From contig NZ_JAGHQX010000003.1 in assembly GCF_017744095.1 (NCBI RefSeq), positions 62,001 to 126,000 on the forward strand: a stretch of DNA of 64,000 nt, given 5' to 3'. This document shows positions 40,369-64,000 of this stretch, piece by piece (positions within the stretch are counted from its first letter, which is position 1; each line of letters opens with the position of its first letter). This DNA comes from Shimia sp. R10_1 (GTDB lineage: Bacteria; Pseudomonadota; Alphaproteobacteria; Rhodobacterales; Rhodobacteraceae). Below the pieces are notes generated by a model that saw only the letters and a program-made list of their open reading frames with translations, did not search any database and was not told the DNA's origin. A program made the position numbers and the translations under genes.

Positions 40369-40372
40369 ATGC

Positions 40373-42503: not shown

Positions 42504-42528
42504 TCCAGCCATCTTTGACTGCCAACCG

Positions 42529-43437: not shown

Positions 43438-43453
43438 TGCCTTTTGGGGCGGG

Positions 43454-47799: not shown

Positions 47800-48272
47800 G
47801 CAACAAAGACGCCATAGCACGCCACGGGCTCGCCAAACGTTTCTGGGAAAAAAAGCCGCTCACCAAGCTCAACAAAACCGAGTGGGAAGCGCTCTGTGAT
47901 GGCTGCGGAAAATGCTGCCTCAACAAGCTTGAGGATGAAGACACTGGCGAAGTCGCCCTCACCTGCGTTGCCTGCCGCCTGCTCGATGATGACACCGGGC
48001 TCTGCAGCCAATACGACATTCGCCACCAGTTTGTGCCCGAATGCATCGTCATGACGCCAGAAAATATTGACGACCATGCCTACTGGCTGCCGCAAACCTG
48101 CGCCTATCGCCTGCTCTGGGAAGGCAAACCGCTCTATGACTGGCACCCGCTGATTTCGGGCCGCCAAAGCTCCGTGCATGAGGCTGGGGTCTCCATGCGC
48201 CACCGCACCGTTTCAGAATTTGACACCCCGCTCGAGCAGTGGGAAGACCACATTATCGAGGAACCGCTCTGA
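47796..48272 (+). CDS. YcgN/UPF0260 cysteine-cluster protein
   Basis: 158 aa. A cysteine cluster CDGCGKCCLNKLED (about residues 30-43), CVACRLLDDDTGLCSQY and later histidine/cysteine positions identify the UPF0260 family, which probably binds zinc or an iron-sulfur cluster. The gene overlaps ribF by four bases and the aldolase gene by one (TGATG), so all three are made from one message. Function unknown. Confidence 0.9.
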   Translation: MSNKDAIARHGLAKRFWEKKPLTKLNKTEWEALCDGCGKCCLNKLEDEDTGEVALTCVACRLLDDDTGLCSQYDIRHQFVPECIVMTPENIDDHAYWLPQTCAYRLLWEGKPLYDWHPLISGRQSSVHEAGVSMRHRTVSEFDTPLEQWEDHIIEEPL

Positions 48273-49324
48273 TGTTTTTTGCCTCTGACAACTCTGGCCC
48301 TGCCCTCCCCGAAGTCCTCACCGCGCTGTCTGCTGCCAACGAAGGCTACGCCATGGGCTACGGCGCAGATGCGGAAATGGCGGAGGTCACAGCAAAGCTG
48401 CGCGAGATATTTGAGGCACCAGAGGCTGCTGTCTATCTGGTCGCTACAGGCACCACAGCCAACGCACTCGCACTGGCAACCCTTTCAAATCCTTGGGAAA
48501 CCATCTTCTGCTCCCATGTGGCGCATATCCACGAGGATGAGTGCAACGCGCCCGAATTTTACACCGGTGGCGCCAAACTCACCATGGCCAGCGCCAAAGG
48601 TGAGGACAAGATGACCCCTGACAGCCTGCGCACCGCCATCGCGGGCGAAGGCAATCGTGGCGTGCATGGCCCTCAGCGCGGCCCGGTCTCCATCACCCAG
48701 GTGACCGAACGCGGCACTGTTTACACATTGGCCGAACTCACAGCGCTCTGTGATGTGGCCAAATCCTTTGACTGCCCTGTCCATCTGGATGGCGCGCGTT
48801 TTGCCAACGCCATGGTCGCTCTCGGCTGTTCACCCGCAGAAATGACATGGAAAGCAGGCGTCGACGCGGTCAGCTTTGGCGGCACCAAAAACGGCTGTAT
48901 GGGTGTGGAGGCCGTGATCTTCTTTGATCCCAAACACGCCCGCGAATTTGAGCTGCGCCGCAAACGCGGCGGGCACCTCTTCTCCAAACACCGCTATCTC
49001 TCCGCCCAAATGCTCGGTTATCTGAAAGATGACGCCTGGATCACCGCCGCCACCAAAGCCAATGCCAGTGCAGCGCATCTCGCCGGTGGTTTGCGCCAGA
49101 TCGACGGTGTGGAATTCATGCACCCACCGCAGGCCAACATGATCTTTGCTTCCCTGCCCCGCGCCACCCACAAACGCCTCTTCGCCGCAGGCGCCAGCTA
49201 CCACCTCTGGGGCGCAGAGCTGGACGGCGCGGATGACACTGAATTGCTCCCCGCACGACTGGTGTGTGACTGGTCAATTGAACAGGATCAGATCCACAAA
49301 TTCCTGGATCTGGCAGCGGGTTAA
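48272..49324 (+). CDS. ltaE: Threonine aldolase (PLP-dependent)
   Basis: Beta-eliminating-lyase fold; cleaves L-threonine or allo-threonine to glycine and acetaldehyde. Start SDNSGPALPEVL is the family hallmark. The PLP lysine is K206 in SFGGTKNG, preceded by HLDGARFANA. 350 aa, normal. Which threonine isomer is used cannot be read from the sequence. Confidence 0.9.
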   Translation: MFFASDNSGPALPEVLTALSAANEGYAMGYGADAEMAEVTAKLREIFEAPEAAVYLVATGTTANALALATLSNPWETIFCSHVAHIHEDECNAPEFYTGGAKLTMASAKGEDKMTPDSLRTAIAGEGNRGVHGPQRGPVSITQVTERGTVYTLAELTALCDVAKSFDCPVHLDGARFANAMVALGCSPAEMTWKAGVDAVSFGGTKNGCMGVEAVIFFDPKHAREFELRRKRGGHLFSKHRYLSAQMLGYLKDDAWITAATKANASAAHLAGGLRQIDGVEFMHPPQANMIFASLPRATHKRLFAAGASYHLWGAELDGADDTELLPARLVCDWSIEQDQIHKFLDLAAG

Positions 49325-49354
49325 CCGCACTTACGAGACACTCTGCGCCAATAG

Positions 49355-49504
49355 GCGGTCACCATCTGCAATGCGAAAATCACAAAGAAAAACGACGACC
49401 CGGACCTTGTGATGAAGGCCGCCAATTGGTGGATCAAAACACACGAACTCGATTCCTTCGAGCAAGCCGTAAAAGTGCGCGATCTGATCCTGTCTGGCGC
49501 TTAG
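49355..49504 (+). pseudogene. Possible gene remnant (C-terminal fragment)
   Basis: A frame free of stops reads KITKKNDDPDLVMKAANWW then IKTHELDSFEQAVKVRDLILSGA and ends at 49504. It looks like protein (tryptophan pair, UVR-like E-Q-A-x-x-x-R-D pattern) but has no convincing start except ATG 49412. I read it as the tail of a lost gene or a very short protein of about 30 residues. Low certainty. Confidence 0.3.
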
Positions 49505-49583
49505 TGAGCATCAAATCAAACGATAGGAACCAGAGATATAAAGGCAGTCGCATCAGATCATGTGATTTGGTATGTTGCAACTT

Positions 49584-50204
49584 ATGAGAAAGTACGGCCG
49601 CACCTACCATCTACCCAATTCGCCTGGCTCCACCAGTGATGACAAAATCATGTCGTCGCTAGAGCGCCTGAAGGTCTCAGATCTCGTGATCACCGAAAAG
49701 ATGGATGGCGAAAACACCACCATTCATAGCGGGGGTACTCATGCCCGTAGTCCTGACAGCAAGTACCATCCTTCGCGCGATTGGTTGCAAGCTTTTGCCG
49801 CAGGGATCTCATTCCAATTGGCACCAAACGAACGCATCGTTGGCGAGAACCTGTATGCGAAGCACTCTATCGCCTACACGGAATTATCATCCTACTTTCT
49901 GGGGTTTGCGCTCATTATTGACAACGAAATCCAAAGCTGGAGCGACACGCTGAGCCGGTTCTCGGACTTGGGTATCGACCCTGTTAAAACGCTTTATCGC
50001 GGTCCATTTTCCGACGGTCTTTTTGAAGTGGTTGCGCAAAATTTGGATCAGGAAACACAAGAAGGGTTTGTGGTTCGTACAGCCAGCGCATTTCTAGAAA
50101 GCCAAATGCCAACAAACATGGGCAAATATGTCAGGGCGGGGCACGTCCAAAGTGAAATTCACTGGACCAAAGCTGAGATGGTTCCAAACCGCTTGAAAAG
50201 CTGA
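49584..50204 (+). CDS. Stand-alone RNA ligase family protein
   Basis: Small nucleotidyltransferase of the RNA_ligase type. Motif I is EKMDGEN with the lysine to be adenylated at K39. Motif Ia/III-like GENLYAKHSI is at 87-96, motif IV EGFVVRT at 160-166 and motif V KYVR at 181-184. 206 aa, so it is the catalytic core only, without an added domain. ATG 49572 four codons earlier is also possible; the family start is nearer M-x-K-Y-x-R-T. No kinase, phosphatase or toxin partner is adjacent. The region is AT-richer than the core genes, suggesting transfer. It may repair cleaved RNA; target unknown. Confidence 0.8.
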   Translation: MRKYGRTYHLPNSPGSTSDDKIMSSLERLKVSDLVITEKMDGENTTIHSGGTHARSPDSKYHPSRDWLQAFAAGISFQLAPNERIVGENLYAKHSIAYTELSSYFLGFALIIDNEIQSWSDTLSRFSDLGIDPVKTLYRGPFSDGLFEVVAQNLDQETQEGFVVRTASAFLESQMPTNMGKYVRAGHVQSEIHWTKAEMVPNRLKS

Positions 50205-50305
50205 CCTTTTTCGAATTGTACGTCTATATGTTCCTAAATAGCTCATGCGCCCCCCTTGGCGCTGCTCTTGAATGTCTTATGAAGAGGGATCAAATCACCC
50301 CCACA

Positions 50306-50335
50306 TTGACAAAATGACATCAAAACCCTATTTTG
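50306..50335 (+). promoter_or_regulatory. Sigma-70-type promoter and operator candidate of the RHH-Fic pair
   Basis: TTGACA (50306-50311), 17-base spacer, TATTTT (50329-50334). Overlapping it is the inverted repeat CAAAA-CCCTA-TTTTG at 50321-50335 and a direct repeat of TGACA. This fits autorepression by the RHH protein encoded next. Confidence 0.6.
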
Positions 50336-50361
50336 AATTCACTTCTAATAGGAGCACTCCC

Positions 50362-50691
50362 ATGTCTGTTCAAATGTCTTTGCGTGTTGATCCAACTCTC
50401 AAGTCTCATCTCGCCAAACTGGCAGAGCTGCGCAAGATGACCGTCAACAAGCTCATTGTGCAGGCGCTGGATCAGTTTGTCGCAAAGGAATCTCACGCCT
50501 TGGAAGCGGAGCTAGAAGCCTCGCTGGCACAACTGCGCCAATACCGCGCCGCTGATCCGAATTTTGAGCAAGCGATCGACGCTGTGGTTTCTGCGGAATT
50601 GTCTACCAAGGAAGATCCGGCCCAAGGAGAGATCCTGACCGAAGAGCCGCAAGAGGCCACATCGCTTGTGCGTGGGCTGCTCGGTGCCTGA
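50362..50691 (+). CDS. Ribbon-helix-helix antitoxin-like protein
   Basis: 109 aa. Residues 3-40 form an RHH DNA-binding unit: strand MSLRVDP, helix LKSHLAKLAELRK, then MTVNKLIVQALDQFV. An acidic helical C-terminal part (ELEASLAQLRQYR, later TEEPQEATSLVRGLLGA) is likely to contact the toxin. Perfect AGGAG precedes ATG 50362. It overlaps the fic gene by about eight bases, a typical toxin-antitoxin layout. I see no clear S/T-x-x-x-E-G/N inhibitory helix, so inhibition may work differently from FicA. Confidence 0.8.
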   Translation: MSVQMSLRVDPTLKSHLAKLAELRKMTVNKLIVQALDQFVAKESHALEAELEASLAQLRQYRAADPNFEQAIDAVVSAELSTKEDPAQGEILTEEPQEATSLVRGLLGA

Positions 50692-51316
50692 TTGGGACGC
50701 TGACAGCGACCAACTGACACAAAACCTCAAATCTGCCTATCGTGCGTCGCGTGACGCGGCTTTCGCGCGCGAACGGCCAACCCTGCGGATGGCGCAGGAA
50801 TGGCATGCCACAACACTGAAAGACCTCACCGTTCCCGCTGACGTTCTGTCGCAACTTTCGGTCACAGCGGACACTATCACCGGGCGCTTTCGAGGGGAAC
50901 CTGGGCTGGAACATTGTGAGGTTGGCATTGGTGTCCATCGCGGCACCCTAGCCTTTCTGGTGGCCGAAGAGCTGGCCCGTTTTGAAGAGCGCGTCCAAAG
51001 CGCAACCGCAGCTCTGGATGCGATCATTCCTCAGGGCGACGCGCCCGCCACCGCCGATCTGCTCAACGCGGTGATCGAGCTCTGCGCTTGGGTGCATGCC
51101 GAATGGGTGCGCATTCATCCCTTTGCAAACGGCAACGGGCGCACCGCGCGGATCTGGAGCGGCTTCATTGCCATGCGCTATGGTCTGCCGCCCTTTGTCA
51201 GACTGAGACCACGCCCAGATGACGGCTATGGCGCTGCATGCAACGCCGCCATGACTGGCGACTGGGCCCCAACTGCCGAAGTCTTCCGCCGCATGTATCT
51301 GAACGCGATTTCCTGA
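50684..51316 (+). CDS. Fic-domain protein (probable AMPylating toxin)
   Basis: Fic core motif HPFANGNGRTAR at residues 145-156 with catalytic H145 and all residues of HPFx(D/E/N)GNGRxxR kept except the acidic metal position, which is N149. The preceding helices are LLNAVIELCAWVHAEWVRI. 210 aa. The likely start is GTG 50684; GTG 50672 and TTG 50666 lie upstream in frame. Transfers AMP or a related group to a target protein. N-terminal helical part may carry self-control (GRFRGEPG), not certain. Paired with the RHH gene. Confidence 0.82.
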   Translation: MPDWDADSDQLTQNLKSAYRASRDAAFARERPTLRMAQEWHATTLKDLTVPADVLSQLSVTADTITGRFRGEPGLEHCEVGIGVHRGTLAFLVAEELARFEERVQSATAALDAIIPQGDAPATADLLNAVIELCAWVHAEWVRIHPFANGNGRTARIWSGFIAMRYGLPPFVRLRPRPDDGYGAACNAAMTGDWAPTAEVFRRMYLNAIS

Positions 51317-51348
51317 ACCGCTCGAAGCAAACGCCTCCCTGTTCAGGA

Positions 51349-51708
51349 CTAAGCCTGCGCGCGATCCGCCTTAATGTCCGCATGCGCGCTGCTCGCCCAT
51401 TCAATCACCGGCAACATCAGCTTCAGCAAAGTCCGCCCCCGCTCAGTCAGCCCATAGCTTACTTTTGGTGGCGACGTCGGGAACACTTCACGTGTCAGAT
51501 ACCCTTCTGCTTCCAATTTACGCAATGTGCTCGTCAATACCCGCTGCGTGATGTCACCCAGCAAGCGCTTGATCTCGTTAAACCGTTTGTCTCCGTCTTC
51601 CAGAACACAAAAAATCAGGATCGACCACTTGTCGCCCACCCGGTCCAGAACATCCCGGATCGGACAATTCTCTGCATCCTTCTTCTCCAGCACAGTTACT
51701 CTGACCAT
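51349..51708 (-). CDS. HxlR-family transcriptional regulator
   Basis: 119 aa from ATG 51708, with AGGAG six bases before it. The winged-helix core is CPIRDVLDRVGDKWSILIF, then RFNEIKRLLGDITQRVLTSTLRKLEAEGYLTRE. An N-terminal cysteine (near residue 14) is where several HxlR proteins sense oxidants or electrophiles. Divergent from a SnoaL-like gene, with a palindrome in between that is probably its operator. Confidence 0.9.
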   Translation of the reverse strand: MVRVTVLEKKDAENCPIRDVLDRVGDKWSILIFCVLEDGDKRFNEIKRLLGDITQRVLTSTLRKLEAEGYLTREVFPTSPPKVSYGLTERGRTLLKLMLPVIEWASSAHADIKADRAQA

Positions 51709-51741
51709 ACCTAAGCTCCTAAAAGTGCGTTCTTGCGCGTT

Positions 51742-51758
51742 GGTATACAATTGATACC
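51742..51758. promoter_or_regulatory. Palindromic operator, probably for the HxlR regulator
   Basis: GGTAT-ACAATTG-ATACC, in the middle of the 85-base gap between two divergent genes. HxlR-type repressors bind GTAT/ATAC palindromes of this kind around CAATTG centres. Confidence 0.65.
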
Positions 51759-51793
51759 TAAGTGCAGCAAGCAACAAACTCGGGAATCACCTC

Positions 51794-52276
51794 ATGAAAC
51801 TGCTGTCCTCATTCATCGCCGCACTCGCGCTGGCGCTCTTTTCCACAACTGCAGGAGCTGACGACATGTCTGACAACAAGAAAAACCTGATGAACTTCTA
51901 CGCCGCCTTTTCCGAAGGCGATCTGGACGCCCTGGACAAAGTGCTGATCGAAGATTGGGTCACCTATGACGCCAACCCAGGTCAGGGCGCAGGCCGTCAG
52001 GGTCTGAAAGACTTCATCCCTCTGGTCGCCGCGTCTTTCTCTGATTTTGAATGGAAAGTCGAAGAGCTGATCGAAGAAGGCAATGTGATCGTGGCGCGCT
52101 CCACCTTCTCCGGCACCCATTCCGGCGAATTCATGGGCCACGCGGCAACCGGCAAACCCTTCACCGCCAAAGCAATCGACGTGCACCATTTCAACGACGA
52201 GGGCATGGTCACCCACACCTATCACCTCGAAGACTGGATCGCAGTTCTGGCACAGATCGGCGCATTGGATCACTGA
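51794..52276 (+). CDS. Exported SnoaL-like (NTF2-fold) protein
   Basis: A signal peptide (FIAALALALFSTTAGADD) is followed by a SnoaL/ester-cyclase type domain: NLMNFYAAFSEGDLDALDKVLIEDWVTYDANPGQ, SFSDFEWKVEELIEEGNVIVARSTF, HHFNDEGMVTHTYHLEDW. 160 aa. Divergent from and probably controlled by the HxlR regulator. Such pairs often respond to toxic small molecules, but the ligand is unknown. Terminator follows. Confidence 0.82.
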   Translation: MKLLSSFIAALALALFSTTAGADDMSDNKKNLMNFYAAFSEGDLDALDKVLIEDWVTYDANPGQGAGRQGLKDFIPLVAASFSDFEWKVEELIEEGNVIVARSTFSGTHSGEFMGHAATGKPFTAKAIDVHHFNDEGMVTHTYHLEDWIAVLAQIGALDH

Positions 52277-52294
52277 GCCACGCCCACCAAACAA

Positions 52295-52328
52295 AAACAC
52301 CCGCAGCGCGCTGGCACTGCGGGGGTTT
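52295..52328 (+). terminator. Terminator after the SnoaL-like gene
   Basis: 12-bp stem AAACACCCGCAG/CTGCGGGGGTTT (one mismatch), 10-base loop, followed by CTTTT. Confidence 0.85.
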
Positions 52329-52349
52329 CTTTTGAACCGGACCAATGTA

Positions 52350-53162
52350 TCAGCCAGCGGCCTCTACCGTCTTGCGCACCTCAGCAGCGACCGCTGCTGC
52401 ATGGGAAATCGCGCCCATATGTCCAGCCCCGGCCACGGTCACCCGCCGCCCGTTCTGCACCTGCGCAGCCACGTAATCACAAGCCGGCTTCATGATGGCA
52501 GGCGACAACGCCCCATCCATCACCACAACAGGCACCTCAATCTGCCCCAAACGCGGCATGATATCTCCCAGATCATGCAGAACATCCTGCTGACTGGCGA
52601 TGACAAACGGCATCAATGCTACAAACTGCGCCCGCATCTCTGCAGGCAAAGCCGACCAGGGGCGCCCATCTCCCCATTCTTCGACAAACAGCTGGACCGA
52701 GCTCTCTGAATCTCCCGCTTCATAGTGAGCAAAGACCCGCTCCATATGCGCGTGGTTCTTCGCAACCTCCTCAGGAGCCTTCTCCTGCGCCCCCAGCATG
52801 GTCACCGGCTCATAGAGCGACAGCGAGCGCACCAGATCAGGCCGCAACAGCGCCAGCCGCAACCCCAAGAGCCCGCCATAGCTGTGGCCAATCACATCCA
52901 CAGGTTCGGTGATCTGATCAAGAATGGCATCCAGCATCCACTGCCCGGTGGGCACATCCGCGCGATAAGGCACGCTACGCCCATGCCCCGGCATATCCGG
53001 TGCCTCAAGGGTCAGCAGGTCATTCAGCGCCGCCGCAATACCGCGAAACGCACCCGAATGCCCAAGGTTGCAATGCAGCGCCAGCGCTCGGCGCGGCCCC
53101 TCCCCCAGAACACGCCAGTGAATGCCGTGCCCAGCAGCCTGCGTTTTGTCGTCCAGTGCCAT
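52350..53162 (-). CDS. Alpha/beta hydrolase
   Basis: 270 aa. Oxyanion region ALHCNLGHSGAF, nucleophile elbow GHSYGG (S about 93), and the catalytic histidine in AGAGHMGAISH. Cap domain in the middle. The fold is clear but substrate is not; related to 3-oxoadipate enol-lactonase and haloperoxidase-like esterases. It lies three bases after the isomerase gene and is probably co-transcribed with it. Confidence 0.85.
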   Translation of the reverse strand: MALDDKTQAAGHGIHWRVLGEGPRRALALHCNLGHSGAFRGIAAALNDLLTLEAPDMPGHGRSVPYRADVPTGQWMLDAILDQITEPVDVIGHSYGGLLGLRLALLRPDLVRSLSLYEPVTMLGAQEKAPEEVAKNHAHMERVFAHYEAGDSESSVQLFVEEWGDGRPWSALPAEMRAQFVALMPFVIASQQDVLHDLGDIMPRLGQIEVPVVVMDGALSPAIMKPACDYVAAQVQNGRRVTVAGAGHMGAISHAAAVAAEVRKTVEAAG

Positions 53163-53165
53163 CGC

Positions 53166-53765
53166 TTACAACTTGCCCGCCAGATGCAGATCCAGATCTT
53201 CCAACCGATCCTGCCCCCAGAACCGCGCCCCATCGTCGGTGTTGTAAAACGGCGCGCCAAAGGCCCCGGCTTCCACCGCTTCCTCCAGATTGCGCGCATA
53301 GGTTTCCGCGCCCACCAGCAACCCGCTGTCGGCCAGCGCCGGATCAAATCCCGCCGCACTCAGGCAGTCGCGGATCACATCATCCTGCGCGATGTCTTTT
53401 TCTTCGGCCCAGCACGCGCGGGTGAACCCATGCGCCAAAGCGCCCAGATCGCCCCCACCGGCGTTCTGCGCCGCAATGAACGCATAAGAGGACGGTGCCA
53501 TATTGGTGGGCCAATGCGCCGGTTTCAGATTGAACGCCATGCCCAGTTTCTTGGCCTGCCGCACCAACTCCTGCGCGCGATACTCCTGACGGCTCACATG
53601 CCGATCCTTGGGCGCGGTGCCCCCCGTGCGGCTGAACAGCCCCATGATATCGAGCGGCTTATAGACAATCTCCGCCCCATGTTTGGCCGCCACTTCCTCA
53701 AGTCGCGTGCCCGCCAGATAGGTATAGGGAGAAATTGTCGAGAAATAATACGTGATTGTGGTCAT
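53166..53765 (-). CDS. 2-hydroxychromene-2-carboxylate isomerase-like DsbA-fold protein
   Basis: Thioredoxin fold of the kappa-class GST/HCCA isomerase type: start ITYYFSTISPYTYLAG (catalytic serine in S-P-Y), then NLKPAHWPTN, and C-terminal GAFGAPFYNTDDGARFWGQDRLEDL. About 199 aa from ATG 53765. It needs glutathione as cofactor in relatives. Together with the hydrolase it could act in aromatic compound breakdown; this is inference. Confidence 0.87.
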   Translation of the reverse strand: MTTITYYFSTISPYTYLAGTRLEEVAAKHGAEIVYKPLDIMGLFSRTGGTAPKDRHVSRQEYRAQELVRQAKKLGMAFNLKPAHWPTNMAPSSYAFIAAQNAGGGDLGALAHGFTRACWAEEKDIAQDDVIRDCLSAAGFDPALADSGLLVGAETYARNLEEAVEAGAFGAPFYNTDDGARFWGQDRLEDLDLHLAGKL

Positions 53766-53872
53766 TTGCGCCTCACTATCCATCTGCATCGCTTTGCGAG
53801 ACGTTAGGGCCATGTTAAGCGGAGTGCAATGTCACGAATCTGTCACCAAAGCCACCTAGGGACCTCCGCGCT

Positions 53873-54889
53873 ATGGCCACCATTCTTGAACCCAAACTGA
53901 TCACAGGCAATGCCAATAAGCCATTGGCCACCGCCATCGCGCGGCGCATGTCCATGCACCGTGGTGTCTCCACAGAGCTGGTCAATGCGCGTGTCGAGCG
54001 CTTCAACGATGCGGAAATCTTCGTTGAAGTCTACGACAACGTGCGCGGCGAGGACATGTTCATCATCCAGTCCACGTCCAATCCAGCCAACGACAACCTG
54101 ATGGAGCTGCTGATCATGGCCGACGCCCTGCGCCGCTCCTCGGCCAGCCGCATCACCGCTGTGATCCCGTATTTCGGCTACGCCCGTCAGGACCGCCGCA
54201 CCAAGGCCCGCACCCCGATCACCGCAAAACTGGTCGCCAATATGATGGTTGAGGCTGGCATCGAGCGCATCCTCACCATGGATCTGCACGCCGCACAGAT
54301 TCAGGGCTTCTTCGACATCCCGGTGGACAACCTCTACGCCTCCCCGATCTTTGCGCTGGATATCAAAGCCCAGTTCAAAGACACCCTCTCTGACGTCATG
54401 GTGATCTCCCCTGACGTGGGTGGTGTGGCCCGCGCGCGTGAGCTCGCCAAGCGCATCAACGCCCCGCTCGCCATCGTCGACAAGCGCCGCGAAAAGCCCG
54501 GCGAAGTCGCCGAGATGACCGTGATCGGCAACGTCGAAGGCAAGAAATGTATCATCGTCGATGACATCTGCGACACCGCAGGCACGCTCTGCAAAGCCGC
54601 CGAAGTGCTGCTGGAACATGGCGCCACCGAGGTGCACAGCTACATCTCCCACGGCGTGCTCTCCGGCCCAGCGATTGAGCGCATCACCAACTCCGTGATG
54701 AAGTCCCTCGTGATCACCGACAGCATCGCCCCAACCGAGGCCGTGAAAGGCGCCAGCAACATCCGCATCGTGCCAACCGCCCCGATGTTTGCCCAAGCGA
54801 TCATGAACACCGCTGCAGGCACCTCCGTCAGCTCACTCTTTGAGACCGAGACTCTGGAGCCCGCCTATGAGGGTCTGTTCAAGGCCTGA
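53873..54889 (+). CDS. prs: Ribose-phosphate pyrophosphokinase
   Basis: Makes PRPP for nucleotide, histidine and tryptophan synthesis. Conserved blocks: [26 protein letters not shown] at the N-terminus, [10 protein letters not shown] (ATP loop), [10 protein letters not shown] and the PRPP loop [13 protein letters not shown] near residue 227. 338 aa; the N-terminal [18 protein letters not shown] stretch is slightly longer than in enterobacteria. Strong terminator follows. Confidence 0.97.
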
Positions 54890-54914
54890 TCTGAGGCGAA
54901 AGCGTTAGAATAGA

Positions 54915-54944
54915 GAAAGCCCCGGCGGATGCGTCGGGGCTTTC
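54915..54944 (+). terminator. prs terminator
   Basis: Perfect 10-bp stem GAAAGCCCCG/CGGGGCTTTC with 10-base loop, followed by TTGCTT. It marks the right border of prs; the foreign cassette starts 12 bases later. Confidence 0.9.
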
Positions 54945-54955
54945 TTGCTTAAAAG

Positions 54956-55654
54956 TCAGATCTTACCATTTGATCGTGGCACAGGTTTCCCATCACCATC
55001 GAAACAATTTCTTGCGGTGCCACTAAATTCACTAATAAACCGGTTACACATCTGTGGATGATCGGCAAATACTGTCATCCAAACTGAGAAAAATCCCTTT
55101 TCAGACGCGATTATCACGATCTGTTCTTCCAAAAGCGATAATACCTCTGCCTTTCCAAGAAATCTCTCATAGTGACCCAATTGAACTTGCGCAATGTCCC
55201 AAGTATCAGAGCGATGATCTGCGCGTTTGTCACGGGCGCTAGGGCGCTCTTTACCGCTTGGATGTCGCAACAGTTTTACCAGAGAAACCAAGTTATTCAT
55301 CAAAGTAACTTGCTCTGGAGATAGATTTGGAGAGATCGTAACAAAACCTCCAGAACAATACGCTAAGCCAAGAAAGGTATTGTCTAAATCAGGAAAAGCC
55401 GTCTCACTGAGAACTACAGCAGATGCGCCTTTGTTACTATTACAACTCTTGCAACTAAGCAAAAAATTGTTCCAAGAAAACTGTAAACTAGGAACCTTAG
55501 ACTTTGGCTGCACATGCTCTATTTCTGGAGCGTGACGAACTGGTTGTTCGCAGTAACTACAGTAGGGGCCAATCCTCGCGACTAGGTCATCTAGAGCTTT
55601 TGCGTATGGTCTATATTGGATATGAGGTGCTGCCCCTTTCGCGATTGGCCTCAT
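54956..55654 (-). CDS. ptuB: HNH endonuclease, PtuB-like (Septu defence)
   Basis: 232 aa. The HNH core is C32-x-x-C35 (YCSYC), IEHVQPKSK with H47, W-N-N (N62) and C68-x-x-C71 in SCKSCNSNKG, the TIGR02646/PtuB arrangement with a structural zinc. Start ATG overlaps the ATPase stop by four bases, so the two products are made together. In Septu systems the ATPase and the HNH protein form a complex that degrades phage DNA. Codon use and AT content differ from prs and from the ABC-F gene, pointing to transfer. The symbol is given by family role, not by a database match. Confidence 0.82.
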   Translation of the reverse strand: MRPIAKGAAPHIQYRPYAKALDDLVARIGPYCSYCEQPVRHAPEIEHVQPKSKVPSLQFSWNNFLLSCKSCNSNKGASAVVLSETAFPDLDNTFLGLAYCSGGFVTISPNLSPEQVTLMNNLVSLVKLLRHPSGKERPSARDKRADHRSDTWDIAQVQLGHYERFLGKAEVLSLLEEQIVIIASEKGFFSVWMTVFADHPQMCNRFISEFSGTARNCFDGDGKPVPRSNGKI

Positions 55655-56955
55655 TCTTTCCCCTGCTTGACACTACTTATGCGCTCCATTTTCATCATGG
55701 CTTCGAGCGCAGGATCTTGGAACCCTCGCTCCATGGCATCAAGTTCCTCTTCAAGTGCTTCTCGTTCATCTGGATCATGGCACTCAGCTAAACGAGCTAC
55801 TTTTGAAAGGTAAGCGCCAGCGCTTTCTCTTTTGTTTACGTAGCCCATCGACCGATCTCTTTCTTCAACCCCCTGAACATCAGTTATGATATCAACAATC
55901 GGCATGCTATAGACACGATCATCAAACTCCATCTCATCAAGGTCCAGCATAACGCCTTCCGATATCGACTGGATAACAAATGGCGAATGACTTGATACGA
56001 CAAATTGCATCTCGGGAAATGCCTCAAGCAGAGCCGGAACAATCTTTTTCTGCCACGTTGGGTGTAGATGCAGATCGATCTCGTCTATTAGTATTATACC
56101 ACGCGCGGATCTTACCGCTTCGGCTCCAAGATGCGGGTTCAAGATAATAGCCTTAAATGCAATATCCCCCACCATAGAAAGGATATTCCGTTGACCATGT
56201 GATAGATTTTCGTATGCCACAGTTCGACGCTCGTCCACGAACTCGACCTCAAGTCTTTCGCGGGATGGAGAGTATCCAACTTTTACATTCGCCTCAAAAC
56301 AAGCTTCGACTGCCCCTCGCCAAGCCGCAAGCGAAGGAGAAGACTCCCCCGTTTCAAACTCACCCAAACGCATTCTCCTCAACCAGTCCAACAGGTCTTC
56401 TGAAGAAACACTTGGTTCGTGACTATTTCGGTAAGCATCAAAACGAGAAGGGCGGTGTTTTCTTTTTCTCAGATAAAACAACTCCCAGAGTCGGTTAGCG
56501 CCATAGTAAGACAGTAGCGGCAAATCAGGATCATCTCCTGCAACTACAGACTGATAAGCTTTTTCGGAGATTGATGATAAATCTCTGGCTTCCTTAGTAG
56601 TAGTGCGGCCACGGATGCTCCCAAGTTCTCGTGCCCAACTCAGCTTGTGATAATCACCGGTCAAAGGATCAGGTAACCGCCCCTCTGCCTCGACCCGTAT
56701 AGGGAACGCTTTTGTAAAATCAGGCTTTCCACCGAAATCCCTTTCAAACTCGTGTGCTTCCCTCTTGTGAAGGTGACGGGCATCCGCAACGGGAATGCCC
56801 AGAAGGAAAGAACCGAAAGCAACGGAAAGTGCATCAAGTATGCTTGTCTTACCAGTGCCGTTCTTGCCCACGATCAGAGTCAACCGAGAATTTAACGGTT
56901 GATCAAAATTCGCAAACCCTCGAAAGTTTTTCAGGATAAGTCGGTCGATCTGCAT
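55651..56955 (-). CDS. ptuA: AAA/ABC-type ATPase, PtuA-like (Septu defence)
   Basis: 434 aa. Walker A GKNGTGKTS at residues 30-38 after the LILKNFRGFANF start, ABC-like signature LSHGQRN at 251-257, Walker B GIILIDEIDLHLHP around 287-299 and switch histidine in SSHSPFV (H323). This layout of a RecF/OLD-like ATPase without a Toprim domain, coupled to an HNH gene, is the Septu type I design. ABC-type head domains with a short inserted helical region explain the size. It shares a low-GC region with the HNH gene. OLD-family or Gabija ATPases are excluded by the missing Toprim domain. Confidence 0.85.
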   Translation of the reverse strand: MQIDRLILKNFRGFANFDQPLNSRLTLIVGKNGTGKTSILDALSVAFGSFLLGIPVADARHLHKREAHEFERDFGGKPDFTKAFPIRVEAEGRLPDPLTGDYHKLSWARELGSIRGRTTTKEARDLSSISEKAYQSVVAGDDPDLPLLSYYGANRLWELFYLRKRKHRPSRFDAYRNSHEPSVSSEDLLDWLRRMRLGEFETGESSPSLAAWRGAVEACFEANVKVGYSPSRERLEVEFVDERRTVAYENLSHGQRNILSMVGDIAFKAIILNPHLGAEAVRSARGIILIDEIDLHLHPTWQKKIVPALLEAFPEMQFVVSSHSPFVIQSISEGVMLDLDEMEFDDRVYSMPIVDIITDVQGVEERDRSMGYVNKRESAGAYLSKVARLAECHDPDEREALEEELDAMERGFQDPALEAMMKMERISSVKQGKE

Positions 56956-57103
56956 TCTATTGCGTCCCTGAATTCGAAGAACTGCACAGTCCCAAAATTT
57001 CGTACGCAGCCAGAGCTATCATTCGAATAAAATCGAGGCAACCTTCACCAACTCCCTACCCCACCGTCCCGACGCAACATATTCAAAAAATGCAGACCTC
57101 CGC

Positions 57104-57136
57104 GATACCGACGCAATACAGACGCGATACCGACGT
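57104..57136. repeat. Three 11-base tandem repeats at the edge of the defence cassette
   Basis: Units GATACCGACGC, AATACAGACGC and GATACCGACGT follow directly, ending six bases before the ABC-F stop codon; a related GACGCAACAT lies at 57071. They sit exactly where foreign DNA meets the core gene. No matching copy was found beside the HNH end. Confidence 0.55.
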
Positions 57137-57141
57137 GCGAT

Positions 57142-58953
57142 TCAGGTGTTGCGTTCGGCCTTTTCCTCTAGCGTCAGCCACTCTTCCTCGGCCTCAGCCA
57201 GCGCTGTTTGGCGCTCCACCAGCGCCTCTGTCGCCTTCTGGAATTTCACCGGTTCTTTGGTGAAAAGCTCCGGATCTGCCATGAATTCTTCAAGCTTTGC
57301 GATCTCGGCTTCCAGTCTTTCCATGATCCCCGGCAGCGCCTCAAGTCGGTGTTTTTCGGTAAAGCTCAGTCCCGCAGCGGGTGCCTTTTCTTGCTTTACC
57401 TTCTCCGCCTTAGATTTTGTTTTTTCGGCCTTTTTGGGCATATCCTCTTGCCGCTGTGCACGGTAATCGGACCACCCCCCGGCGTAAGTCACCGCGCGAC
57501 CATTGCCTTCCATGGCGATGGTGGTGGTCGCCACACGGTCCAGAAAATCGCGGTCGTGGCTCACCAACAGCACGGTGCCGTCATAGTCATCCAGCAGCTC
57601 CTGCAGCAGGTCCAGCGTCTCCACATCAAGGTCGTTTGTCGGCTCGTCCATGACCAGAAGATTGCTCTCCTTGGCCATCAGTTTTGCGAGCAGCAACCGC
57701 GCCTTCTCGCCACCGGAGAGAGACCGCACCGGCGCTCTGGCCTGGCGATCATCAAACAGAAATTCTTTAAGGTATCCAACGACATGCTTGGGGTTGCCGC
57801 GCACCATCACCTGATCCGCCTTGCCCGAAACCCGCATCTCCGGATCGCCTGTCAGGCTGTCCCAAAGGGTCATTTCCGGGTCAAGTTTTGCACGCGCCTG
57901 ATCAAACACCGCAGGCAGCAGATTGGTGCCCAGCGTGACCGTTCCAGAGTCCGGCTCCAGCTCTCCCATCAGCATCTTAATCAGGGTCGTTTTGCCCACA
58001 CCATTGGGGCCGACAAAGGCCACCCGATCGCCCCGCTGCACCGTCAGAGAGAAATCCGAGACAATAGCCTTTGCCTCAAAACCCTTCGACAACCCTTTGG
58101 CATCAATAACCTTTTTGCCAGATTTAGGAGCCGCAGAAAGTTCCATCGCCGCAGAACCCTGCCGCGAGATCATAGAAGCCCGCTCCGCCCGCAGATCCTT
58201 CAGCGCCCGCACACGGCCCTGATTGCGTTTGCGCCGGGCACTGATGCCTTCCACCGCCCAACGCGCCTCGGCTTTGATCTTGCGATCCATCTTGTGGCGC
58301 TGGATGTCTTCTTCTTCCCAGACCTTGTCCCGCCAGGCTTCAAACGCCTCAAATCCCTTCTCCTGACGACGCACCATTCCCCTGTCAATCCAAAGGGTTG
58401 CACGTGTAAGTGCACGCAAGAAAGCACGGTCGTGGCTGATCAAAACATAGCCTGCACGGGTCGCTTTCAGCTCAGCTTCAAGCCAGGCAATCGCCTCAAT
58501 ATCAAGGTGGTTGGTCGGCTCATCAAGCAACATCAACTCCGGCGCTTCCGCCATCAGCCGCGCCAAAGCCGCCCGCCGCCGTTCCCCGCCAGAGGCGGTC
58601 TCAACCGCGCGCGCGGGATCAAACTTAAGCCCTTCACCAGCCCGCTCAACCTTATACATTTCACCGGTCTCAAGGCTGGCTGAGGCAAAGTCGCCAAGCG
58701 TCGCAAACCCTTTCATGTCAGGGTCTTGCTCCATGTATCCCACGCTGATGCCCGGCGGCACAACGATCTCCCCGCGATCCGCTTCAACCAATCCCGCCAT
58801 CACCTTCATGAGGGTGGATTTGCCTGATCCATTACGCCCCACCAAGGCGACCCGATCACCGGGCTGCACCACAAGGCTCAACTGATCAAAAACCGGATCT
58901 CCACCAAAGGTCAGCGAGATATCGTTCATCTGCAAAAGAGGTATACGTGCCAT
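57142..58953 (-). CDS. ABC-F ATPase, Uup-like
   Basis: 603 aa cytosolic protein with two ABC domains and no membrane part. First Walker A GRNGSGKST near residue 39, signature ASGGERRR, Walker B LMLLDEPTNHLD; linker; second Walker A GPNGVGKTT near 320, signature LSGGEKAR and VMDEPTNDLD. A lysine/glutamate-rich linker and a coiled-coil C-terminal domain (about 530-600) are the Uup hallmark. Uup acts on the ribosome and in tolerance to transposon excision and replication problems. Confidence 0.92.
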   Translation of the reverse strand: MARIPLLQMNDISLTFGGDPVFDQLSLVVQPGDRVALVGRNGSGKSTLMKVMAGLVEADRGEIVVPPGISVGYMEQDPDMKGFATLGDFASASLETGEMYKVERAGEGLKFDPARAVETASGGERRRAALARLMAEAPELMLLDEPTNHLDIEAIAWLEAELKATRAGYVLISHDRAFLRALTRATLWIDRGMVRRQEKGFEAFEAWRDKVWEEEDIQRHKMDRKIKAEARWAVEGISARRKRNQGRVRALKDLRAERASMISRQGSAAMELSAAPKSGKKVIDAKGLSKGFEAKAIVSDFSLTVQRGDRVAFVGPNGVGKTTLIKMLMGELEPDSGTVTLGTNLLPAVFDQARAKLDPEMTLWDSLTGDPEMRVSGKADQVMVRGNPKHVVGYLKEFLFDDRQARAPVRSLSGGEKARLLLAKLMAKESNLLVMDEPTNDLDVETLDLLQELLDDYDGTVLLVSHDRDFLDRVATTTIAMEGNGRAVTYAGGWSDYRAQRQEDMPKKAEKTKSKAEKVKQEKAPAAGLSFTEKHRLEALPGIMERLEAEIAKLEEFMADPELFTKEPVKFQKATEALVERQTALAEAEEEWLTLEEKAERNT

Positions 58954-59013
58954 AGCGAAAGCGCCTAGCCCGCAAATCTAATCCCGTCAACCTCTCGGTC
59001 TAGAGACAAGCAC

Positions 59014-59742
59014 TTATCCAGCCAGCGCACGAAGCAAGCGCTTTCTGGCTGGGGGAATGGAACGGATCTCAACACCTGTAAACACGTGCAATGTATTCAT
59101 TTTTTTATCAACAACCGCATGATCACTGACCCATCCCCCCATCATAAGGTAGCTGCGCAGCATGGGGGGCATGTGACGTTGAGCATCCCTTAGGTTCGGA
59201 CGACGGGCCAATTTAGAAGCAAACCGAAAAACGCTCGGTGCTTTGACTTTTGGCAACCAGCATTTAGGGGCAAGGTGCCGGTCACGCAGCATCGCGAAAC
59301 TATCAAGATAGGCGCGTGTGTCGGTACCAGCGAAAGAGGCACATCCAAACAGCAGATCCACTTTGTTTTCATCGACAAAGCGCGTCATCGCCGCCCATGC
59401 GGCGCGCAGCACATCAGGATCATGCACGTCCGGGTGCATACAGAACCGGCCCATTTCAACCATACGGCCCGGATACGCCTCAAGAGCGCTGAGCTCATAA
59501 AACTGAGCGGCGTAACAATCGGCAATGTCACGGCCCTCGTTCAGAGGTAACATTCTGAAGACGCAGACCAAACGGCCGCTTGTCATCTCTTCGATAAGAT
59601 AGTGCGTACAACGTGCATCAAAATCATCACGATCCCGGCCATCCGCGTGCCCCAAAAACGCGAGACTCCGCAAGCGCTGAGCGGCCTCAAGGTCTTTGGC
59701 TGAAACAGCATTCCGGACACAGTAATGGCCATAGTTCAGCAT
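59014..59742 (-). CDS. olsB: Ornithine lipid synthesis N-acyltransferase OlsB
   Basis: GNAT-type enzyme that puts the 3-hydroxyacyl group on ornithine to form lyso-ornithine lipid. Recognised by RLRSLAFLGHADGRDRDDFDARCTHYLIEE, LVCVFRMLPL and EMGRFCMHPD blocks near residue 100 and the LFGCASFAGTD stretch. 242 aa from ATG 59742, preceded by AGG; a TTG six codons upstream is weaker. OlsA, which adds the second acyl chain, is not adjacent, so it must be elsewhere or fused. Confidence 0.85.
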   Translation of the reverse strand: MLNYGHYCVRNAVSAKDLEAAQRLRSLAFLGHADGRDRDDFDARCTHYLIEEMTSGRLVCVFRMLPLNEGRDIADCYAAQFYELSALEAYPGRMVEMGRFCMHPDVHDPDVLRAAWAAMTRFVDENKVDLLFGCASFAGTDTRAYLDSFAMLRDRHLAPKCWLPKVKAPSVFRFASKLARRPNLRDAQRHMPPMLRSYLMMGGWVSDHAVVDKKMNTLHVFTGVEIRSIPPARKRLLRALAG

Positions 59743-59839
59743 CGCATCGCCTAAGGTCAATTCGTCGACACCCCGACCCTAGCAAAACAGGAATGACGAG
59801 AAAATGACACCCGACATAGGCACACGCTGCTCGCCTGAA

Positions 59840-60313
59840 TCAGAAATCGCCGCTGCCTGGTGCCGGTGCGCCAATCGGCGAGAAGTTGCCAAGGTTGCGC
59901 CCCAATTGACGCAGCAGACCGCCAGACTCGATATTGTTGTCGGTGATACGGCGCGCCAGAGGAATCACCTGACCGTCTTCTAGGGCAAACTGCTCAATGT
60001 TGCGCGCGATCCCGTTGTTATCAAAACCAATCGCGACGATTTGGCGATCAACCACCTCGGGTCTCCGTGGACCGAAGTGTTTCACTCGACTGCGCACATA
60101 AAGATACCCGCTGTCATTTAACACGCCAGATGCGGACGGTGGGCCGAACGTGTCTGCAATGGTGTCTCGTGTATCGACACCCAGGGTGATCGACGCCAGC
60201 TCTTCTGCAGAAGGCACATAGCCATGATTTCTGTATCGGGTCGCACATGAGGCCAGCGCCAACACCAACGCCCCCATGACCGTGACTTTGATCATCGTCT
60301 TGCGCGTCTTCAT
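59840..60313 (-). CDS. bamE: BamE/SmpA-OmlA family lipoprotein
   Basis: Lipoprotein of the outer-membrane assembly complex. Lipobox LASC with C23 after a hydrophobic signal. The BamE fold follows: SITLGVDTRDTIADTFGPPSASGVLNDSGYLYV, then VVDRQIVAIGFDNNGIARNIEQF. A glycine/proline-rich tail ends the 157 aa. AGGAC precedes the ATG. Divergent from the yceD gene, as is common in roseobacters. Confidence 0.9.
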   Translation of the reverse strand: MKTRKTMIKVTVMGALVLALASCATRYRNHGYVPSAEELASITLGVDTRDTIADTFGPPSASGVLNDSGYLYVRSRVKHFGPRRPEVVDRQIVAIGFDNNGIARNIEQFALEDGQVIPLARRITDNNIESGGLLRQLGRNLGNFSPIGAPAPGSGDF

Positions 60314-60423
60314 GTTTGTCCTCTTGTGTTGGCCCGACTTGCCTTTTATCTCGCTTATAGAAGGAATGCGCGCTGTTCAAGAAAGTAAGCGCGCTGGCCC
60401 ACTCCAGACCAAAGTCAGAAACC

Positions 60424-60984
60424 ATGTCACACACAGTGCCCACCCCCACCGCGTTTCGCGTGGCAGATCTCCCGCAAAACCGCCCAACGGTTTTTGAGCT
60501 GCGTCCAGACGCGCAAACACTTGAAGCCATTGCCAAAGAGCTCGACCTAACAGGATTAAAGAAGCTCTCCTTCAAAGGGGAGTTGCACGCCTTCGGCAAG
60601 AGCGATTGGGAGCTGATCGCAGATCTTGGCGCAACCGTCATTCAGCCATGCGTTGTCACTTTGGAACCGGTCACCTCACGAATTGATGAAGTGGTAGAGC
60701 GTCGTTTCCTTGCAAAAATGCCGGAGCTTGCGGCTGACGAGGAAGAAATCGAGATGCCTGAGGACGACGATGCGGAACCTTTGGGGGCGACGATAGATGT
60801 ATTTGCTGTGATGCAGGAAGCTTTGGCGCTTAACGTTCCGCTATTTCCGCGCTCTGAAGGCGCTGCACTGAAAGAAGCGGTCTTTACCGAAGCCGGCAAA
60901 AAGGCCATGACAGACGAAGACGCGCGTCCGTTTGCCGGGCTGGCCGCCCTGCGCGATCAGTTGACACCAAAAGACGACGAATAG
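60424..60984 (+). CDS. yceD: YceD-family protein (DUF177)
   Basis: 186 aa. The N-terminal VADLPQNRPTVFELRPDAQ, then LSFKGELHAFGKSDWELIADLGATVIQPCVVTLEPV (conserved CVVTLEPV block) and an acidic region. C-terminal FAGLAALRDQL is kept. DUF177 proteins are tied to 23S rRNA accumulation and precede rpmF and plsX in most Gram-negative bacteria, as here. Confidence 0.88.
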   Translation: MSHTVPTPTAFRVADLPQNRPTVFELRPDAQTLEAIAKELDLTGLKKLSFKGELHAFGKSDWELIADLGATVIQPCVVTLEPVTSRIDEVVERRFLAKMPELAADEEEIEMPEDDDAEPLGATIDVFAVMQEALALNVPLFPRSEGAALKEAVFTEAGKKAMTDEDARPFAGLAALRDQLTPKDDE

Positions 60985-61122
60985 GGCTTGCGTTGTGGGA
61001 AAATCGCAGTATTTTCGCGCGCTCATTCGAATTTAGCGTTGGACTCAGCCGCGCATATTGCGTAGACGCTCACAACGCTCAGGAAATCGGGCAACTTGCC
61101 CCAGTAAATCAAAGGTTGCGAC

Positions 61123-61329
61123 ATGGCTGTCCAGCAGAACAAAGTATCTAAATCGCGCCGCAACAACCGCCGTGCACACGACGCCCTGGTTGCAGCGAAT
61201 CCTAACGAATGCCCAGATTGCGGTGAGCTGAAGCGCCCACACCATGTGTGCCCTTCCTGTGGCCACTATGCAGATCGCGAAGTCATCGCGATGGCTGACG
61301 ACGTCGATCTGGACGAAGACGCAGCATAA
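61123..61329 (+). CDS. rpmF: 50S ribosomal protein L32
   Basis: 68 aa, starts [20 protein letters not shown]. Zinc-ribbon-like pattern C-P-D-C ... C-P-S-C-G in the middle. Basic N-terminus and acidic end ([10 protein letters not shown]). Lies between yceD and plsX, the usual order. Confidence 0.97.
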
Positions 61330-61349
61330 ACAACAGGATCTGCGCCCCT

Positions 61350-62438
61350 ATGGCCGGTTTGACTACATCAGCAAACCCCTTCAGCGGGCGCACGGTGATC
61401 TCTGTCGACGCCATGGGTGGCGATCGCGGGCCGGCAGCAGTAGTTGCCGGCATTTCGCTTTCTGCGAACAAAAATCCCGACATTGCATTTATTCTTCACG
61501 GTCCCGAAGCGGAGTTGAGCCCACTGGTTGCGCGCAAACGTAACCTGGAAGGACGTGTAGAGATTCGCGATGTGTCAGGCACTGTCGCGATGGAAGATAA
61601 GCCACGCGACGTGATCCGTCGCGGCAAGAGCACTTCGATGTGGTCGGCAATCGAATCAGTACGCGCTGGCGAGGCAGACGCCGTGGTGAGCTGCGGCAAC
61701 ACCGGTGCGCTGATGATGTTGTCTGTGGTGCGCCTGCGCAAGATCCTCGGAGTAGACCGTCCCGCAATTGCGGTGCTCTGGCCCTCGCGTGCCCCGCAAG
61801 GCTTCAATATCATGCTGGACGCCGGCGCAGACATCAGCGCAGATGAGCATGATCTTTTGCAGTACGCATTGATGGGCGCCTCCTATGCACGCAACGGTAT
61901 GGAACTGCAGCGCCCTCGTGTCGGGCTGCTGAATGTTGGCACCGAAGAACACAAAGGCCGGAATGAGCTGAAATTGGCTCATGATCTTATCGCCAGAAAC
62001 GCCGAGATCGCGAACTATGAATTTGTCGGTTTCGTCGAAGGAAACGACCTGCCCGCAGATAAGGCAGACGTGATCGTGACCGACGGATTCACTGGCAACG
62101 TGGCCTTGAAAACCGGCGAAGGCACCGCAGGCCTGATCGGGTCTTTGCTGCGCGAAGCATTTAAATACTCGCCCCTGTCGCGCCTCGCGGCGCTCATGGC
62201 CTATACATCTCTAAACCGCCTCAACAAACGCATCGATCCACGTCGTGTGAACGGCGGCGTATTTCTTGGCCTCAATGGCACCGTGGTAAAGTCTCATGGC
62301 TCATCTGACGCAACAGGGGTGTCTTCAGCGGTGAAGCTCGCATTTAAGCTGGCGCAGTCTGGCTTTTCCGAAAAGCTTGCTGCGCGGGTTGCATCTGCTG
62401 TTTCCCTGCCGCAAGATGCCGAGAACTCAAGCGACTAA
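61350..62438 (+). CDS. plsX: Phosphate acyltransferase PlsX
   Basis: Converts acyl-ACP to acyl-phosphate for phospholipid synthesis. VISVDAMGGDRGP near residue 15, SCGNTGALMMLSV, GRPAIAVLWPS, LLNVGTEEHKG, DGFTGNVALKTGEG and VNGGVFLGLNGTVVKSHGSSDA are family blocks. 362 aa. The N-terminal 14 residues before VISVDAM are extra; GTG 61395 is an alternative start. Confidence 0.95.
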   Translation: MAGLTTSANPFSGRTVISVDAMGGDRGPAAVVAGISLSANKNPDIAFILHGPEAELSPLVARKRNLEGRVEIRDVSGTVAMEDKPRDVIRRGKSTSMWSAIESVRAGEADAVVSCGNTGALMMLSVVRLRKILGVDRPAIAVLWPSRAPQGFNIMLDAGADISADEHDLLQYALMGASYARNGMELQRPRVGLLNVGTEEHKGRNELKLAHDLIARNAEIANYEFVGFVEGNDLPADKADVIVTDGFTGNVALKTGEGTAGLIGSLLREAFKYSPLSRLAALMAYTSLNRLNKRIDPRRVNGGVFLGLNGTVVKSHGSSDATGVSSAVKLAFKLAQSGFSEKLAARVASAVSLPQDAENSSD

Positions 62439-62461
62439 AAATAACTTAGCAAGGCACAAAA

Positions 62462-63436
62462 ATGACAACGCGCGCCGTGGTTCTGGGTGTAGGCCACTAC
62501 TTACCGGAACGGGTCGTTCCAAACGCTGAGTTTGAAAAAACCCTTGATACGTCAGATGAATGGATTCGCACGCGCTCGGGCATTGAGCGTCGCCATTTTG
62601 CAGCTGACGATCAGACAACGTCTGATTTGGGCAGCCTCGCGGCAAAAGCCGCACTGAAGAGTGCTGGGCTTGAAGCCAACGATCTTGATGCCATTGTAGT
62701 GGCAACATCGACCCCTGATCTCACCTTTCCTTCAGTCGCCACCATGGTGCAGCAAAAAATCGGCATGACGCGCGGCTTTGCATTTGACGTTCAGGCTGTG
62801 TGCGCTGGTTTTGTCTTTGCCCTCACCAATGCCAATGCTCTGATCGTTTCTGGTCAGGCGAAACGCGTGATGGTGATTGGCGCGGAAACCTTCAGCCGGA
62901 TCATGGATTGGACTGACCGCGCGACTTGCGTGCTGTTTGGCGATGGCGCAGGTGCACTTATCCTTGAAGCCCAAGACGGCACTGGTGAGGCCTCTGACCG
63001 CGGTATTCTCAGCGCAGATCTCAACTCAGACGGTCAGTACCGGGATATGCTTTATGTGGATGGCGGTGTCTCCACGTCTGGAGAGGCAGGCAAACTGCGC
63101 ATGCAGGGCAATGCACTCTTCCGCCAGGCCGTGGAAAAGCTGACTTTTACAGCCCAAAACGCGCTCGATAAAATTGGCGTAGGACACGACGATGTTGCAT
63201 GGATTGTGCCACATCAGGCCAATATTCGCATCATTCAAGGCACAGCCAAGAAACTTGGCATCCCGATGGATCGCGTGATTGTGACAGTACAGGACCACGG
63301 CAACACATCTGCGGCCTCGATACCGCTGGCGCTATCGGTCGGCGTGGCCGAAGGCAAAATCAAGTCAGGCGACCTCATTGTCACGGAAGCAATCGGTGGC
63401 GGTTTGGCTTGGGGATCCGTAGCACTGCGCTGGTAG
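62462..63436 (+). CDS. fabH: 3-oxoacyl-ACP synthase III FabH
   Basis: Starts fatty-acid synthesis by condensing acetyl-CoA with malonyl-ACP. Catalytic C114 in DVQAVCAGFVFAL, histidine in WIVPHQANIRI and asparagine in DHGNTSAASIPLAL. RSGIERRHFA and LDTSDEWI at the N-terminus are typical. 324 aa, normal. Twenty-three bases after plsX. Confidence 0.96.
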   Translation: MTTRAVVLGVGHYLPERVVPNAEFEKTLDTSDEWIRTRSGIERRHFAADDQTTSDLGSLAAKAALKSAGLEANDLDAIVVATSTPDLTFPSVATMVQQKIGMTRGFAFDVQAVCAGFVFALTNANALIVSGQAKRVMVIGAETFSRIMDWTDRATCVLFGDGAGALILEAQDGTGEASDRGILSADLNSDGQYRDMLYVDGGVSTSGEAGKLRMQGNALFRQAVEKLTFTAQNALDKIGVGHDDVAWIVPHQANIRIIQGTAKKLGIPMDRVIVTVQDHGNTSAASIPLALSVGVAEGKIKSGDLIVTEAIGGGLAWGSVALRW

Positions 63437-63556
63437 AAATACCGCGTAAACCTTTGTTGCGTATCAAAGTTAAACGGGGCTGGCACAGCCCAAGTCATTG
63501 ACTTATAAAATCCCATACCTCTATGGTTTTGAGAGATTTAGAAAAAGGGGGGACTT

Positions 63557-63859
63557 ATGACTGGCAAGACATTGACCCGGATGGACCTGAGCGAAGCCGT
63601 ATTTCGTGAAGTGGGCCTTTCCCGAAATGATTCCTCGCAACTCGTCGAGAGTGTGCTCGCGCACATGTCAGATGCCTTGGTGCGTGGCGAGCAAGTCAAA
63701 ATCTCGTCTTTTGGCACATTCAGCGTACGTGAAAAAGCGGCGCGTGTTGGCCGTAACCCAAAAACCGGCGAAGAAGTGCCTATCAACCCACGCCGCGTGC
63801 TCACGTTCCGACCATCTCACCTGATGAAAGACCGCGTCGCGGCGGGCAACAAAAAATAA
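63557..63859 (+). CDS. ihfA: Integration host factor alpha subunit
   Basis: DNA-bending protein. 100 aa with [21 protein letters not shown], then the DNA-binding arm [22 protein letters not shown] (the proline intercalates in the minor groove). IHF alpha is distinguished from beta by its placement next to the merR gene and by sequence. GGGGGG precedes the ATG at good distance. Confidence 0.95.
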
Positions 63860-63873
63860 GAGAGTAACGTCCC

Positions 63874-64000
63874 ATGGCGAAATCCCGGGAGGCCTTTCGC
63901 ACAATCAGCGAAGTGGCGGATTGGCTGGGTGTGCAGACCCATGTTCTTAGATTCTGGGAAAGCAAGTTCTCTCAGGTAAAGCCGGTGAAACGCGCTGGTG
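63874..64000 (+). CDS. MerR-family regulator (cut by window end)
   Basis: The first 42 codons are present: [19 protein letters not shown], then [23 protein letters not shown]. This is the MerR helix-turn-helix and wing. It directly follows ihfA, as in many alphaproteobacteria. The effector domain lies beyond the window. Confidence 0.9.

Follow-up and report, generated by a model that had tools for sequence, protein, structure and literature searches.

What are the two AT-rich genes that lie between prs and an ABC-F gene in Shimia sp. R10_1, and how did they come to occupy this place? Analysis of the 64,000-nucleotide stretch of DNA that carries them, hereafter the window, indicated that the locus is very probably a type I Septu cassette in a 2.1-kb slot, which in the closest relative examined holds a retron type XII RT-TIR gene. 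Judging from sequence and structure models, its products probably act as a phage-triggered nuclease. The assignment to the Septu family is ordinary, and the genomic setting is well resolved and mildly surprising.

The gene pair and its surroundings

The features of the locus are as follows.

53873-54889, plus strand: prs, the left flank (Pfam Pribosyltran_N and Pribosyltran).
54916-54943, no strand: terminator-like inverted repeat 3' of prs, recognised by eye, at the left slot edge.
54946-57041, no strand: exchange slot of 2096 bases to which blastn aligns nothing from G160, the closest relative examined; the same flanks enclose 1836 other bases in G160.
54956-55654, minus strand: ptuB, 232 aa, HNH endonuclease subunit of Septu (profile, Pfam HNH, and fold matches).
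55651-56955, minus strand: ptuA, 434 aa, ABC/SMC-like ATPase subunit of Septu (profile, PDB sequence, and fold matches).
57086-57141, minus strand: one copy of an intergenic repeat built of 11-bp units and dispersed in the genome, which has 35 matches there, itself counted (40 of 57 candidates scored); it is host DNA outside the cassette.
57142-58953, minus strand, same direction as ptuAB: ABC-F gene, the right flank (Pfam ABC_tran and ABC_tran_CTD; relatives are named ABC-F family).

Both open reading frames described in the first-pass annotation were found again, and their four-base overlap was located at 55651-55654. The ABC-F gene is upstream of ptuA at a distance of 186 bases, and prs is convergent with ptuB. 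The annotation had also placed the pair 12 bases after a prs terminator. By eye, the inverted repeat indeed ends 12 bases before the stop codon of ptuB, and a similar repeat follows prs in the relatives compared, but a consensus terminator scan did not flag the one in the window. The pair had further been called AT-richer than the flanking genes, and this was borne out: ptuB (GC 0.44) and ptuA (GC 0.48) had the two lowest GC contents among the 55 window ORFs of at least 150 aa, for which the mean was 0.572 (sd 0.037). Their GC3 values were 0.37 and 0.43, respectively, against a mean of 0.622 (sd 0.068). No sigma-70-like promoter was detected in 54800-57300, where shuffled sequences gave a mean of 2.7, and this result counts against the functional Septu reading, since the pair may not be expressed. 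Elsewhere in the window, an ORF with a Fic/DOC domain (50666-51316) weakly matched the PADLOC candidate PDC-S04 (4e-13).

Assignment of the pair to type I Septu

The first-pass annotation had proposed a Septu PtuA-PtuB pair from motifs and suggested a profile search of both proteins against the two families. Both proteins matched the type I Septu profiles of PADLOC almost end to end, in agreement with the proposal: PtuA matched PtuA1 (PDLC00278) with an E-value of 1.1e-113 over residues 1-428 of 434, and PtuB matched PtuB1 (PDLC00315) with 2.7e-72 over residues 1-230 of 232.

The best sequence match of PtuA in the PDB was E. coli PtuA 8ee4 (E 2.6e-34), followed by retron type I-A PtuA. Structures were predicted for PtuA and PtuB as single chains. 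With the AlphaFold model of PtuA (mean pLDDT 93.3, 70 aligned sequences), Foldseek ranked E. coli Septu chains first, the best being 8eea_D (E 1.3e-25), and identity to E. coli Septu PtuA in the fold alignments was 24-27%. The ATPase motifs noted earlier were all found, namely Walker A (G30, G35, and K36), the signature LSHGQRN (S252 and G254), and the switch residue H323, together with Walker B (D291-E292). These residues were identical in all 70 sequences of an alignment consisting of the query and 69 relatives chosen among the best 120 of 516, and position 37 was T in 47 sequences and S in 23.

PtuB contained a Pfam HNH domain (E 1.5e-8). Its closest solved structure by sequence was a retron type I-A PtuB (4.5e-6), aligned over the HNH core only. 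Its AlphaFold model (mean pLDDT 97.3, 66 aligned sequences) gave nine fold matches at E <= 0.001, all of them chains of retron type I-A or Septu PtuAB complexes; they included 9u9y_H (4.3e-7) and 8eea_G (3.8e-4, 15% identity), and the best PDB match was retron type I-A PtuB. PtuB carried the residues C32/C35, E46-H47, N63, C68/C71, N72, and K75. In an alignment of the query and 65 relatives chosen among the best 120 of 601, E46, H47, W61, N63, N72, K75, C35, and C71 were identical in 66 of 66 sequences, and C32 and C68 in 65. The spacing of 16 between H47 and N63 is the same as that between H75 and N91 in the PtuB of Septu EcB88, where substitution of either residue, or changes in the PtuA Walker motifs, are reported to abolish immunity (PMC13096335).

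PtuB directly followed PtuA in all eight relative loci fetched; in two of these, tblastn matched one of the proteins in pieces (PtuB of L021 and PtuA of L024). In addition, 65 PtuA rows and 50 PtuB rows had 32 contig sizes in common, size being a mere proxy for the same contig. The locus thus combines what marks type I Septu: a near full-length PtuA profile match with an adjacent PtuB match, intact ATPase and HNH residues, and the folds of solved PtuA and PtuB.

Comparison with known systems placed the Shimia pair near, and apart from, E. coli Septu (8ee4, 8eea, and 8sux). The two share the PtuA-PtuB pair, the PtuA fold, the length class (434 vs 465 aa), and the lack of a reverse transcriptase (RT), but Shimia PtuA is only distantly identical, as given above, and Shimia PtuB forms a distinct subfamily. 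The PtuAB of type I-A retrons (Ec78/Eco7 and Ec83) are homologous ATPase and HNH effectors and provide the best PtuB fold matches; unlike them, the Shimia pair showed no RT alongside and no Rfam match, and its PtuA has no N-terminal extension. Septu EcB88 (PMC13096335) likewise has a ptuA-ptuB pair and the same spacing of HNH His and Asn.

The likeness of PtuB raises the question of whether the pair might be what is left of a type I-A retron (RT plus PtuAB), namely its effectors, with the RT lost or encoded elsewhere. In both sequence and fold, PtuB resembles the PtuB of type I-A retrons more than that of E. coli Septu, and in the sister species G160 the slot holds a retron-type RT. That RT, however, belongs to type XII and is itself fused to a TIR domain. 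PtuA lacks the N-terminal extension of Ec78 PtuA: the alignment starts at residue 66 of Ec78 PtuA and at residue 3 of ours, as it does with Septu PtuA. The NCBIfam equivalogs named for retron Ec78 scored far below their cut-offs (186 bits vs 500 for PtuA and 41.4 bits vs 150 for PtuB), a result that also counts against the Septu reading. No RT model matched the ten neighbouring proteins (E <= 1e-5), and a type XII RT-TIR query had no match in the own genome (E <= 1e-20) or in the eight relative loci (E <= 1e-4). Rfam gave no match in the window or in locus L053, a weak test, as the retron-type RT of G160 likewise yields no RNA. We consider a retron origin of the pair very unlikely.

It is extremely improbable that the ATPase is a housekeeping DNA-repair protein of the SMC/RecF kind with an HNH gene beside it by chance. 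The Pfam SMC_N and NCBIfam RecF models do match PtuA, but within the Walker A region (residues 3-48), whereas the PtuA profiles span residues 1-428; the pair is linked in all eight relatives; and, unlike a repair gene, PtuA has no match at E <= 1e-10 in 24 of the 25 genus genomes. A silent or decaying Septu remnant would fit the missing sigma-70-like promoter and a composition unlike that of the host, but neither frame is disrupted and the catalytic residues are still in place, and we regard this, too, as unlikely. A type I Septu cassette remains the reading that we prefer.

The slot between prs and the ABC-F gene

PtuA was present in only one of 25 genus genomes (E <= 1e-10), in two of 149 family genomes (E <= 1e-20), the second being just 32% identical, and in four of 394 family genomes including its own (E <= 1e-40). 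One family genome (G233) carried two PtuA relatives (L098 and L100), 61% and 35% identical to Shimia PtuA. No PtuA relative was confirmed in viral contigs.

The window and the corresponding G160 contig were collinear by blastn over 46821-54945 and 57042-64000, with nothing aligned in between. Identity was 0.904 in both 54001-55000 and 57001-58000 and 0.880 in 58001-59000. Between the two species, the ABC-F proteins were 99% identical and the prs proteins 97%. The 1836 bases of G160 encode one plus-strand protein of 506 aa, identified as a retron RT-TIR of type XII, that is, an RT fused to a TIR domain (PADLOC RT-TIR_XII, 1.2e-155). At E <= 1e-20 this protein was found in G160 alone of the 25 genus genomes. 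The Septu and RT-TIR cassettes thus each occur in one species of 25, between the same two borders and in opposite orientation, the latter being a single gene for an unrelated protein. Two predicted defence cassettes thus share one slot in sister species, and a relative does carry another defence gene at the site, as the first-pass annotation had proposed to check. Further stretches of the window unaligned with G160 were 35478-38096, 39347-42615, and 43437-44580.

Arrival by transfer, as the first-pass annotation had suggested, is well supported by the occurrence of PtuA in a single genus genome, the clean swap with G160, and the lowest GC in the window. As to the route of this horizontal transfer, the simplest that we infer is homologous recombination across the flanking genes, which are conserved. 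Apart from ptuA and ptuB the slot contains no long gene, and neither an integrase nor a transposase accompanies them in it. None of the prs to ABC-F intervals read provided an empty site, and the cassette may either have been gained or have replaced another.

The interval between prs and the ABC-F gene did not turn out to be a stable roseobacter neighbourhood. The two genes were on one contig within 31 kb solely in a close clade, in nine of 25 genus genomes and 1.7 to 31 kb apart; G168, a tenth close species, has them on two contigs. Of the remaining 15 genomes, 14 had them on different contigs and one had them 1.6 Mb apart, although in draft genomes different contigs do not strictly exclude adjacency. 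The intervals of Shimia sp. R10_1 (GC 0.470) and G160 (0.456) were the most AT-rich of the nine, the others ranging from 0.531 to 0.598.

G160 thus has another defence gene at this site, but not so the other seven of the nine readable intervals, where a PADLOC scan of 75 of the 76 interval ORFs of at least 100 aa revealed no clear defence system (an ORF of G157 spanning two pieces, shorter ORFs, and G168 were left out). At E <= 1e-10, matches in the seven intervals belonged to six families, the best being mad3 (3.1e-46): those to mad3, mad8, AriA, and ATPase-Toprim trace to two ABC-transporter ATPases of G157, that to Csa3 is a 111-aa protein of G159, and that to subtilase is one protein (3.7e-11). 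Among the 25 of 99 Pfam families listed for these intervals, most concerned transport, metabolism, and regulation, and none was an integrase. With clear defence systems in two of nine intervals, one each, and none in seven, the slot does not, on this sampling, qualify as a general hotspot of defence genes. Core-gene-flanked hotspots with differing defence systems at fixed chromosomal sites are described in E. coli and Pseudomonas (PMC10121019, PMC10250203); the Shimia slot resembles these in having differing systems at a fixed site and differs in how few intervals are occupied.

Another relative, G162, has the prs 3' end with its terminator twice: the additional copy (L056, around 6071-6210) lies approximately 3 kb downstream of prs, a trace of past duplication or insertion at prs. 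A duplicated prs end as an attachment site was rejected for the Septu cassette, as the best self-match of that segment scored 9-15 in the eight other intervals, including our own and that of G160, vs 104 in G162.

The first-pass annotation had taken the 11-base tandem repeats at 57104-57136 for the far border of the insertion. The repeat was confirmed at 57101-57135 (3.2 copies), but it is not a border: a copy adjoins the ABC-F gene in the own species and, by eye, in nine relatives too, and is therefore not a mark of Septu insertion; the family is dispersed in the genome; and the G160 alignment border (57041/57042) lies inward of the repeats. Consistently, of the four G160-unaligned stretches longer than 1 kb in the 35-58 kb part, the Septu one alone had a copy, and the own-genome search gave no other match within the window. 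The exact two-unit pattern occurred in 21 of 25 genus genomes and two of 149 family genomes. Of the 34 other matches, 27 could accommodate four 11-bp units, with 0-9 substitutions over 41 bases, and 12 of these 27 copies lay between convergent ORFs (crude ORF call). The repeat appears as a dispersed element of up to four tandem units (57086-57141 and loci L012-L018 and L073-L092). TTAACC or GGTTAA was found within 100 bp of 13 of the 27 copies, at 3.3 per kb vs 0.11 per kb over the remainder of these loci, a mostly coding comparison stretch, so that the excess is perhaps partly plain intergenic composition; in seven copies the motif stood 17-20 bases before the first unit. We found no literature on 11-bp tandem intergenic repeats in Roseobacter.

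A broader and rather doubtful idea is that the interval in the Shimia clade may serve as a compact, integrase-free exchange slot, in which single-cassette defence systems (Septu and RT-TIR) are swapped by flank recombination and the 11-bp-unit repeat forms a constant landing edge on the ABC-F side.

Proposed action and meaning of the cassette

By analogy with relatives, ATP-bound PtuA would assemble into oligomers that restrain PtuB, and phage infection would activate PtuB. The HNH site of activated PtuB may then cleave nucleic acid, either phage DNA or host tRNA-Tyr, both of which are reported for relatives; cleavage of tRNA-Tyr is reported for Septu EcB88 (PMC13096335). Cleavage would halt phage production, probably at the cost of growth of the infected cell. 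It is thus likely that ptuAB would stop phage infection by cutting nucleic acid. Judged by titles and the beginnings of abstracts, the listed papers that name both Shimia and Septu were unrelated.

The locus represents a branch of Septu that few genomes of the family carry and that is distinct from those of E. coli. In the precise Septu/RT-TIR swap, two close species provide a compact and sharply delimited example from nature of one defence system standing where the other stands, without mobile genes in the slot, and the cassette lends itself to the question of whether DNA or tRNA is the target of PtuAB beyond enteric bacteria.
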